From assembly GCF_013752535.1 (NCBI RefSeq), contig NZ_CP058348.1, positions 3,844,001 to 3,908,000 on the forward strand: a stretch of 64,000 nucleotides of DNA, in the 5' to 3' direction. Both the position numbers and the translations under genes were made by a program. Source of the stretch: Bdellovibrio sp. KM01. Its GTDB lineage: Bacteria > Bdellovibrionota > Bdellovibrionia > Bdellovibrionales > Bdellovibrionaceae. Positions 40,670 to 43,758 of the stretch are shown here, one piece after another. Position 1 is the first letter of the stretch; the number at the start of each line of letters is the position of its first letter. Under the pieces are notes generated by a model that ran no database searches, was not told where the DNA came from, and was given only the letters and a program-made list of their open reading frames with translations.

Positions 40670-41326
40670 TCAGTCTCCGCAAGTAAGCGTCCTATGAGCC
40701 AGGGCCCAAGTTTCAAAATGAGGGGGACTTCCAAGGGCTTCGAACGCGGCAAGCGCTGTGGAGCCCGTGGTAACGATATCGTCGGCAAATACCCATAGGG
40801 CCTCTGACCAAAATTCAGACACCACTGAAGAATTTTCATCGAGCTCTAGGACAACCTCCACCCGCTTATCTCGGGTTGCGCCACGCTGGTGACGGGTCGA
40901 AACCTTTTTTAAACAGGGATGCACCTCTCCCCCGACCGCCTTTGCCAAGGCTTCCGCCCATTGATGGGCGTGATCCTTTTTATGACTTTTCGAGGGGGCC
41001 GGAACGACTAGGATTTTTCGGTCAGGCAGACCTTGCAACATTCTTCTGGTCACAAATCGTGTGGCCCAATAACTCCAGTCGGGTCGCTGATGATATCCCT
41101 TAAGCCCCGCAATTTGCGTCGATAACAGATCACTAGTTCCTGGATTCCAGCGAAACAACGCCAAAGCCTCAAAGATTGCAAGGGGCCGCACTTCCAGATT
41201 TTGCCCCAAATAACTGTTGAGCCTCTGGCGGCAATGTTCACACAGCAAACCTTCGCTTTTCAGCAATGATCCGCAATGCAGACAGGGATGAATGTAGCGG
41301 TTTAATAATTTGATTATAGAGTTCAT
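40670..41326 (-). CDS. ComF-family phosphoribosyltransferase-like protein
   Basis: A 218-residue protein with an N-terminal zinc-finger (CLHCG, then LCEHCRQ) and a C-terminal PRTase domain with the PRPP-binding motif VFADDIVTTGSTALAA. ComF proteins act in uptake and handling of transforming DNA; the enzymatic role is not known. I start at the ATG at 41326; longer starts up to 41404 add residues without conserved content. It lies 22 bases upstream of lolA. Confidence 0.85.
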   Translation of the reverse strand: MNSIIKLLNRYIHPCLHCGSLLKSEGLLCEHCRQRLNSYLGQNLEVRPLAIFEALALFRWNPGTSDLLSTQIAGLKGYHQRPDWSYWATRFVTRRMLQGLPDRKILVVPAPSKSHKKDHAHQWAEALAKAVGGEVHPCLKKVSTRHQRGATRDKRVEVVLELDENSSVVSEFWSEALWVFADDIVTTGSTALAAFEALGSPPHFETWALAHRTLTCGD

Positions 41327-41421
41327 TGCAGACTCTTGGAGCAATTCCCAATCCACCCCCTTGCCTTTCATTTGACAAGATCCTAAGGGCGTCTTAGAAC
41401 CCAAAATGGGTGGGGATTTTC

Positions 41422-42195
41422 ATGAAATTAATCACAGGTCTGGTTACAGCTTTAGTTATACTTGCACCGAATGCCTTTGCGGGATTGTCTGCACATCGCC
41501 AAGCGAATGAGTCGTTCCAAGACGCGCAATCTCGCAGCCGCGGAAATGTTTTGTTTTCTGATCTTGATGGAGAATTTTCCGGCTCAGGTCCCGAGTCATT
41601 GGCGAAACCCATGTCTCAGCTTAAGTTAAATGAAATTCCGGCACTGCCCTCCTATCAAGAACTTGTCGCTCAGTTTTACTTTATTCGTGATTCTTATTTT
41701 GTGAAAGCAGGATACACTCCTCGTCGCCTGACTTGGCTTTTCCCTGATGACGGTTGCTATGCCCGTGCTGAACTGGCGGCAGAACATCTGATTATGAATC
41801 ACGCTATCTCACCAAAAAAAGTTTTCGCATTCGGAGAACTTCACGCAGCGACTAACAACTCGCCAAATGGTTGGGTGGAGTGGTGGTACCACGTTGCTGT
41901 TATCTATCGCGTGGATAACACAGCTTACGTTCTAGATCCGGCGTTGAATCCGCACCAACCTTTAACTTTGTCTCAATGGGGCGAGGCGATCGGCGGGAAC
42001 AAAACGGCGGTTAATTACTCTATCTGCTCCAAAGACGCCTTCGATCCAGACAGCGCCTGCATGCAGCCTCCTAAAATTGATGAAGAAATGGCGGAGCAAG
42101 AACAGGAAGTCTTTCTTCCGGAAGAATGGAACAGAATTTTAGAATTGGGCCGCGATCCAGAAAAAGAACTCGGCAATCAGCCACCATGGCTGTAA
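41422..42195 (+). CDS. Secreted protein-glutaminase-like deamidase
   Basis: A 257-residue exported protein (signal peptide MKLITGLVTALVILAPNAFA) with an approximately 80-residue pro-region. The core has Cys112 in FPDDGCYARAE, His157 in WWYHVAVIY and Asp172 in YVLDPAL, the Cys-His-Asp order and contexts of bacterial protein-glutamine glutaminases such as the Chryseobacterium enzyme, which deamidates protein glutamine side chains to glutamate. FAFGELHAAT between Cys and His also matches. GGGTGGGG precedes the ATG at 41422. The C-terminus is acidic. Target proteins are unknown. Confidence 0.78.
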   Translation: MKLITGLVTALVILAPNAFAGLSAHRQANESFQDAQSRSRGNVLFSDLDGEFSGSGPESLAKPMSQLKLNEIPALPSYQELVAQFYFIRDSYFVKAGYTPRRLTWLFPDDGCYARAELAAEHLIMNHAISPKKVFAFGELHAATNNSPNGWVEWWYHVAVIYRVDNTAYVLDPALNPHQPLTLSQWGEAIGGNKTAVNYSICSKDAFDPDSACMQPPKIDEEMAEQEQEVFLPEEWNRILELGRDPEKELGNQPPWL

Positions 42196-42226
42196 AAAAA
42201 GGCTCCTCACGGGGCCTTTTTTATTT
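42195..42226. terminator. Terminator shared by the glutaminase-like gene and rlmH
   Basis: Stem AAAGGCTCC / GGGGCCTTT (one T-G type mismatch pair) with a TCAC loop, A run before and T run after, between convergent genes. Confidence 0.88.
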
Positions 42227-42262
42227 GGCTCTGACAGGGAGCCGGTTCGATCAAATTCCAAA

Positions 42263-42733
42263 CTAAATATTGTGATACGGAATTTTTTTGATGATCGTAA
42301 AGGCGCGATAGATTTGTTCCAAGCTCATTGCCTGCGCCATTAAATGATTCATGACCATTGGGGAAAGCGCCACTTTTAAATCCGCGCGCTTACGAACCTC
42401 TTCGTTGACCCCAAAGGCTCCGCCGATAATAAAGATCGCGCGTTTCTTAGAACTTCCCAGAATGTTTTCGATTTTTTTTGAGAACTGAATTGAATCCAAA
42501 ACCGATCCACGCTCGTCAAAAAGAATGACGTAGTCGTCTGAATTGATGTTTTTAAGAATGAGCTCGGATTCTTCGTTGCGCTTAAAGTCTGCATCTTCGC
42601 GCGCAGACTTTTTGGCTTTTAGACTTTGAATTTCAAAGGGAATGAAAAAGGAAATTTTCTTTTTGTACAACCCGCTGACTTCGTCAGCCCACGCCTCTTT
42701 GGCGGTTGCAAGGTTGTACAAAATGAACTTCAT
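42263..42733 (-). CDS. rlmH: 23S rRNA pseudouridine-1915 N3-methyltransferase
   Basis: RlmH is a SPOUT methyltransferase acting on helix 69 of 23S rRNA in assembled ribosomes. The 156-residue length is normal; the C-terminal knot motif FIIGGAFGVNEEV and LALSPMVMNHLMAQAM-like ending EQIYRAFTIIKKIPYHN are diagnostic. It follows the nadD-rsfS fusion by two bases, so the ribosome-linked genes obgE, rsfS and rlmH form one operon. Confidence 0.95.
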   Translation of the reverse strand: MKFILYNLATAKEAWADEVSGLYKKKISFFIPFEIQSLKAKKSAREDADFKRNEESELILKNINSDDYVILFDERGSVLDSIQFSKKIENILGSSKKRAIFIIGGAFGVNEEVRKRADLKVALSPMVMNHLMAQAMSLEQIYRAFTIIKKIPYHNI

Positions 42734-42735
42734 TA

Positions 42736-43758
42736 CTATTGTTTCCCAACGTATGGATCTTTAAGAGGCAAAACTGTGCCTTGTCTCCACAAGTTCTCAA
42801 GACCGTACTCAAGGCGTACGAAATCATAGAATACGTGAATGATCAAAGTACCGTAATCAACCAAAACCCAACGACCTTCATCAACACCCTCTACGGATTG
42901 TGGATGAACATTGAACTCTTCTTTAACTGCGATCACGATGTTTTCTGCCATTGCAGTCGCGTGACGAGTGGAAGTACCAGATGCGATCAAAGCAAACTCA
43001 CTTGGCGCCGTGATTTTTCTTAGGTCGTAACCAAGTACGTTGATACCTTTGTTCGCAAACAACACGTTAGCGCAGAATTCAGTGAACTTAGTGTAGTCAC
43101 CGATACGGTCGCCAAGGTTTCTATAAAGTTTGTGTTCTTTGATGTAAGTCTCAACCGCAAGTGGCAAGTACTGCTCAACTGGTTTACCAGAACGAAGCCA
43201 TTTACGAACTTCACTGGAAGAGATTTCGATATCACGCAAAGTAATGAACTGAATGCTACGACCCGTAGTTAGCTCGATAAAGTTGAAATCGAAGTCCGCC
43301 ACAAGTGGTTTCAAGTAACCAGGCATTTCATCCAAAGACTCTGGCATGTCGTAACCTGGGCGAGTAGTCACCACCAAGTTCGTTTCAGCCAGAATTTTAG
43401 AATAGTCTTTCCACTGACTAAGTTCTTCAAACTTGTCGGCGCCCACGATCAAATACAAATCAGATGCTTCGTATGTTTTACGAAGGTTCATGATTGTATC
43501 GATTGTGTAGCTCATGCCACCGCGTTTTAGCTCTTGATCATCAACGAAGTAAGTTTCTCCGTACTGAGCAAAAGCAAGCTTTGTAAGCTCAAGGCGTTGC
43601 TCCGCAGAAGGACCTTCCACTGGTGTTTTAAGAGGGTTTTGAGCTGCAGGTATCACGTGGACTTTATTCAAGCCCATTTTCTTTGCCACTGTTTGAATGG
43701 CATTGATGTGACCCATGTGAGGAGGATTAAAGCTTCCGCCAAAAATACCAATTTTCAT
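42736..43758 (-). CDS. NadD-RsfS fusion: nicotinate-nucleotide adenylyltransferase joined to ribosome silencing factor
   Basis: Residues 1-215 are NadD: IGIFGGSFNPPHMGH with the nucleotidyltransferase HxGH-type motif, LIVGADKFEELSQW, and EISSSEVRKWLRSG (ISSTxxR type). Residues about 220-335 are RsfS (Iojap/DUF143): KGINVLGYDLRKI, FALIASGTSTRHATAMAENI, and EEGRWVLVDYGTLIIHVF-like VDEGRWVLVDYG. In most bacteria these are separate neighbouring genes. The fusion joins NAD synthesis with dimerisation control of the 50S subunit. No stop or frameshift separates the parts. It overlaps the obgE stop by one base. Confidence 0.93.
   Translation of the reverse strand: MKIGIFGGSFNPPHMGHINAIQTVAKKMGLNKVHVIPAAQNPLKTPVEGPSAEQRLELTKLAFAQYGETYFVDDQELKRGGMSYTIDTIMNLRKTYEASDLYLIVGADKFEELSQWKDYSKILAETNLVVTTRPGYDMPESLDEMPGYLKPLVADFDFNFIELTTGRSIQFITLRDIEISSSEVRKWLRSGKPVEQYLPLAVETYIKEHKLYRNLGDRIGDYTKFTEFCANVLFANKGINVLGYDLRKITAPSEFALIASGTSTRHATAMAENIVIAVKEEFNVHPQSVEGVDEGRWVLVDYGTLIIHVFYDFVRLEYGLENLWRQGTVLPLKDPYVGKQ

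Follow-up and report, generated by a model that had tools for sequence, protein, structure and literature searches.

The locus and its gene

The window, that is, the whole stretch of 64,000 nucleotides from Bdellovibrio sp. KM01 that was analysed, carries at 41422-42195 on the forward strand an open reading frame (ORF) of 257 amino acids, which begins with an ATG at 41422 and ends with a stop codon at 42193-42195. An in-frame GTG at 41410 offers an alternative start that would lengthen the protein by four residues, the ATG at 41422 being the likelier of the two. The features of the gene and of its two neighbours are as follows, the basis of each being given in brackets.

41422..42195, + strand: protein-glutaminase-like gene, 257 aa (ORF call, profile search, PDB sequence match, Foldseek)
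41422..41481, + strand: predicted Sec signal peptide, residues 1-20, cut between AFA and G (by eye: Lys, hydrophobic core, A-x-A)
41482..41637, + strand: short pro-segment, residues 21-72, end approximate (superposition on mature protein-glutaminase starts at residue 73)
41482..41499, + strand: GLSAHR, residues 21-26, candidate pseudosubstrate plug (VIA-align ranges in two models; conservation in orthologues)
41674..41988, + strand: Gln_deamidase_2 catalytic domain, residues 85-189 (Pfam profile match)
41755..41757, + strand: predicted catalytic Cys112, in DGCYARAE, residues 110-117 (aligned with protein-glutaminase Cys156; invariant)
41890..41892, + strand: predicted catalytic His157, in WYHVAVIY, residues 155-162 (aligned with protein-glutaminase His197; invariant)
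41935..41937, + strand: predicted catalytic Asp172, in VLDP, residues 170-173 (aligned with protein-glutaminase Asp217; invariant)
42025..42060, + strand: Cys202 to Cys213, invariant pair (alignment of 28 orthologues)
42169..42189, + strand: C-terminal signature LGNQPPW (LGxxPPW), residues 250-256 (invariant in 28 orthologues, absent from paralogues)
40670..41330, - strand: comF-like neighbour, divergent from the glutaminase gene (place conserved in the genus)
42263..42733, - strand: rlmH neighbour, convergent with the glutaminase gene (place conserved in the genus)

The signal peptide (MKLITGLVTALVILAPNAFA followed by G) was read by eye, with putative cleavage after Ala20, and in the alignment of orthologues a signal-like N-terminus is kept ahead of a conserved GLSAxR; the signal peptide claimed in the earlier note is thereby borne out. 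A scan of the locus for promoters and terminators gave a result not above chance; by eye, a hairpin resembling a terminator can be seen at about 42193-42226. Further downstream, the C-terminal third of the protein encoded by the nadD ORF (42736-43758, - strand, 340 aa) resembles, again by eye, the ribosomal silencing factor RsfS, and the same inspection suggests that NadD and RsfS are fused in this way throughout the genus.

Family assignment and active site

From the motifs DGCYARAE, WYHVAVIY and VLDP, the earlier note had proposed a Cys-His-Asp triad in contexts close to those of the protein-glutaminase (PG) of Chryseobacterium, and had named a profile search with the PG family as a check. 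That search returns the Pfam family PF18626 (Gln_deamidase_2) at 98.1 bits, where the cut-off is 25 (E = 4e-28, profile positions 5-105 of 106), a match far outside chance expectation. The NCBIfam equivalog NF040782, which represents the Chryseobacterium-type PG, scores 51.6 bits, under its cut-off of 250, so that a PG-like substrate range cannot be assumed. The only PDB entries matched by phmmer are protein-glutaminases (8z3i, 2zk9, 2ksv, 3a56 and 3a54; best 8z3i, 1.2e-10); the same holds when the PDB is searched with a profile of the orthologues (E down to 1.4e-19), and profile-profile alignment to pro-PG reaches a probability of 98.6 (E 9e-16).

Sequence and profile alignments alike pair C112 with Cys156, H157 with His197 and D172 with Asp217 of pro-PG (Cys42, His83 and Asp103 of mature PG), and the triad is invariant in the 28 aligned orthologues, as the motif reading would have it. 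The pro-PG sequence used is identical to PDB 3a56, from which 3a54 differs by a Gln at position 47; Cys156, His197 and Asp217 are taken here to be the numbers of the active-site residues in pro-PG. An active site made of Cys, His and Asp is given for PG in PMC9396377, which cites Hashizume 2011. Protein-glutamine deamidation is the likely activity of the predicted enzyme.

Predicted structure

Structure prediction was the other check named in the earlier note, with the loss of a papain-like triad geometry as the outcome that would speak against a deamidase. The AlphaFold2 model, built with 33 aligned relatives (pLDDT 89.1, pTM 0.86), matches the PG fold, and the papain-like arrangement is present at fold level; a second model, from which the signal peptide was removed, has a pLDDT of 88.6 and a pTM of 0.88. 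Foldseek against the PDB yields six matches at E <= 0.001, every one a PG, and VIA-align superposes the predicted model on 8z3i with a Z of 16.8 and on mature PG (2zk9) with a Z of 16.4, at 2.4 A over 151 residues. A library of viral structures gave nothing at E <= 0.001.

With the PG of Chryseobacterium proteolyticum (EC 3.5.1.44; 2zk9, 2ksv, 3a56, 3a54) the Bdellovibrio protein shares the fold (Z ~16), the triad, the motif contexts and, as far as the signal read by eye and the models indicate, secretion and an N-terminal pro-segment reaching the active site. The two differ in that core identity is about 25%, the pro-segment counts 114 aa in PG and about 50 aa in Bdellovibrio, and Cys202/Cys213 and the C-terminal LGxxPPW are absent from PG. 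The best match by sequence (1.2e-10) as well as by structure (Z 16.8) is FBPG of Flavobacterium (8z3i), yet identity over the superposition is 20%, its pro-region is longer and its aligned part is without LGxxPPW. The next family in the VIA-align results is human NTAQ1 (Z 7.1), an N-terminal glutamine amidohydrolase with a related papain-like glutamine deamidase fold (12% identity), whose sole target is an N-terminal Gln and which is not secreted.

The broad fold is also shared by enzymes of other chemistry, and transglutaminases and arylamine N-acetyltransferases do appear lower in the fold list, at Z ~4-5; the protein might accordingly cross-link or cut proteins rather than deamidate them. 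Such a transglutaminase-like or peptidase activity is improbable, given that PG stands at Z 15-17 and other families at about 7 or below, that all five sequence relatives in the PDB are PGs, and that its motifs match PG in context (DGCYARA, WxYHVA and DPS/DPA).

The pro-segment and a proposed mechanism

The pro-region that the earlier note had described is found, but it is short, running from residue 21 to about 72 as against 114 residues in Chryseobacterium. The superposition of the full-length model on pro-PG starts with residue 21 on pro-PG 44, and so does that of the signal-less model, in both pro-PG entries. If the two are paired from there without a gap, GLSAHR would lie over MLTAQF and Ala24 over Ala47, as read from the ends of the aligned ranges; this correspondence comes from structure superposition of predicted models alone, the pro-segments of query and pro-PG being left unaligned by the sequence profiles of hhalign and HMMER. 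All 28 orthologues have Arg26, and 27 of them have Ser at position 23; at position 24 no residue but Ala, Ser or Pro occurs. Further on, a poorly ordered linker extends over residues ~44-53, with pLDDT below 50 at 47-53 in one model and at 44-52 in the other.

In the 2011 work of Hashizume and colleagues, a loop of the pro-region reportedly covers the active site of pro-PG and places Ala47 over the pocket, and substrate-like complexes are said to have been captured with A47Q mutants; that A47Q is an engineered site is confirmed by the PDB sequences (3a56 versus 3a54). Chryseobacterium and Bacteroides secrete their PGs as pro-proteins whose cleavable pro-region lowers or blocks activity (PMC13139226, PMC9396377).

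The mechanism proposed for the Bdellovibrio protein would run as follows. In step 1, the protein would be exported by Sec, the signal being visible, and cleaved after Ala20. In step 2, GLSAHR would, to go by the models, lie across the active-site pocket with Ala24 in the position of the substrate glutamine, like Ala47 in pro-PG. In step 3, a protease would cut the loose linker at about residues 41-56 and release the enzyme. In step 4, by analogy with known PGs, His157 and Asp172 would activate Cys112 for attack on the side-chain amide of a protein-bound glutamine, leaving glutamate and ammonia. That the gene product is an exported protein-glutamine deamidase, i.e. steps 1 and 4 taken jointly, has a probability of roughly 0.75. 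That it is a compact self-blocked zymogen, its new N-terminus plugging the active site until the linker is cut (steps 2-3), appears rather probable from the models.

A clade with a C-terminal signature

In the 28-row alignment the orthologues share, besides the LGxxPPW end, invariant Cys202, Cys213, Arg89-Asp90, Arg101-Arg102 and Glu235-Trp236; Cys202 and Cys213 could possibly pair as a disulfide. When further PF18626 sequences were fetched, LGxxPPW proved to be confined to those nearest the query. A maximum-likelihood tree built from 84 sequences unites the proteins with the tail in one clade across Bdellovibrionales (support 100/99), in which 41 of the 43 rows have LGxxPPW, the exceptions being one LGDLPVW and one open frame that ends before the motif. 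The Chryseobacterium PG sits on a long branch, and the tree does not place the clade relative to it. Other Gln_deamidase_2 proteins of Bdellovibrionota (e.g. those at L067 and L045) score well over the PF18626 cut-off and keep the triad letters, but they fall outside the LGxxPPW clade and are without the C-terminal tail.

Distribution, genomic context and selection

An orthologue (E < 1e-30) is encoded in 22 of the 24 genomes of the genus Bdellovibrio, among them those presumed to be HD100, Tiberius, SSB218315, kdesi, ZAP7, NC01, SKB1291214 and reynosensis. On the presumed HD100 chromosome (3,782,950 bp) it occupies 3,709,605-3,710,351. Orthologues are also present in other families of the order and in the presumed genome of Pseudobdellovibrio exovorus JSS, an epibiotic predator. 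At the level of the phylum, PF18626 matches occur in 105 of 197 sampled genomes, as against none of 14 control genomes.

The order of genes in the neighbourhood is rimO, a LolA-like gene, comF, the glutaminase gene, rlmH, nadD and obgE, and wherever a Bdellovibrio locus is long enough to show it, the gene has the LolA-like/comF side on one flank and rlmH on the other. The comF gene diverges quickly, and similarity identified it in only part of these loci. The gene is absent from the presumed genome of strain W (3,006,992 bp), where some 30 bp separate comF from rlmH in a contiguous junction; the strain W assembly may be incomplete (PMC11656739). In the JSS genome the junction is likewise closed and the gene sits elsewhere, the presumed Ca. 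B. qaytius genome (3,348,710 bp) has zero PF18626 matches, and in a fragmented genome (G003) rlmH itself was not found. The comF-rlmH junction is closed in the presumed W, JSS and qaytius genomes (L076 ~1465-1500; L079 ~1441-1500) and occupied by the glutaminase gene in the window (41330-42263) and in the other Bdellovibrio; it follows that either an insertion or a move brought the gene to this place within the genus, or W has lost it.

Between close pairs of orthologues, dN/dS is 0.035-0.044, and the gene is therefore under strong purifying selection. That the protein has kept only the fold, whether as a binding protein or as one without catalysis, is very improbable, for the clade shows no variation at Cys, His or Asp and dN/dS is ~0.04.

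A possible role in predation

Most enzymes known to serve bacterial predation act on peptidoglycan or are proteases, nucleases or lipases. Deamidation gives proteins more negative charge and solubilises them, an effect for which PG is used. An action of the candidate enzyme on prey proteins is plausible. In step 5 of the proposed mechanism, which is speculative, proteins of the prey envelope or released prey proteins would be the substrates, and the negative charge gained would help to unfold and solubilise them for the proteases of the predator, while ammonia would be yielded; prey-protein substrates with such a solubilising effect are a tentative proposal. The near-universal presence of the gene in Bdellovibrio and its presence in the epibiotic P. 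exovorus are compatible with a role in predation. Predation does not strictly need this copy, since it is missing from the presumed W and qaytius genomes, though the former does carry another PF18626 gene (L069).

The same chemistry may serve another purpose: located in the periplasm or at the surface, the deamidase might act on envelope proteins of the predator itself, or it might scavenge nitrogen from any protein in the environment as a general nutritional enzyme, without a particular link to prey. The gene sits amid housekeeping genes (rimO, comF, rlmH, nadD, obgE) and is carried by many Bdellovibrionales whose lifestyle is not known, and PG is secreted by C. proteolyticum and C. cucumeris, which are not known as obligate predators (PMC9396377). 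Its near-universality in a predatory genus under strong purifying selection argues in the opposite direction, as do the several divergent secreted PF18626 paralogues carried by the order, which would suit an external diet. On balance, such another purpose is a serious possibility, though short of an even chance. That Bdellovibrionales have recruited PG for predation, as a compact self-plugged zymogen which is released toward prey and deamidates the proteins of the prey inside the bdelloplast so that they are loosened and digested, is unlikely on present evidence.

Searches of the open-licence literature for PG or deamidases together with Bdellovibrio or predation found nothing relevant, in agreement with the earlier note, in which the family is not known to have a described role in bacterial predation. 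Neither glutaminase nor deamidase is mentioned in the main texts of papers on the predation proteome, the predatosome, empty bdelloplasts, secreted enzymes and comparative genomics. The enzyme class as such is already known, and Pfam detects the KM01 member; what appears undescribed in the open-licence literature is the LGxxPPW-tailed clade spanning the order, the shortness of the pro-segment, and any connection between the family and predatory bacteria.

A conserved exported deamidase in nearly all Bdellovibrio would put protein deamidation on the list of predation enzymes and, were the recruitment toward prey true, bacterial predation would include glutamine deamidation as a step not recognised before. 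The interest of the finding is moderate and would rise were a prey substrate shown. PG is also used in food processing, for which its 114-residue pro-region has to be cut away, and a naturally short pro-form would for that reason interest enzyme engineers.

Further PF18626 proteins of the phylum

Besides the orthologue, the presumed HD100 genome has a second PF18626 gene (L067:8840-9643, + strand; 106.7 bits), in which the cysteine stands in GCEERAHEMSR and the LGxxPPW tail is missing; relatives of it occur in several Bdellovibrio (L057, L058, L099), and in the KM01 genome no copy of this kind exceeds the cut-off. The presumed Halobacteriovorax marinus SJ genome encodes a secreted protein of 541 aa (L045:400-2022, + strand) with the PG domain at residues 369-468; the long N-terminal part ahead of the domain matches nothing in Pfam. 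Seven PF18626 matches in one genome of the order (G103) amount to a family expansion. Finally, outside the window, the KM01 genome encodes a more distant glutaminase-like secreted protein of 405 aa (L035:1270-2484, - strand; contig 1 3638389-3638613, - strand), which at 19.6 bits is under the Pfam cut-off and whose motifs FCFGRA, WTFHVA and IIDP preserve the succession of Cys, His and Asp.
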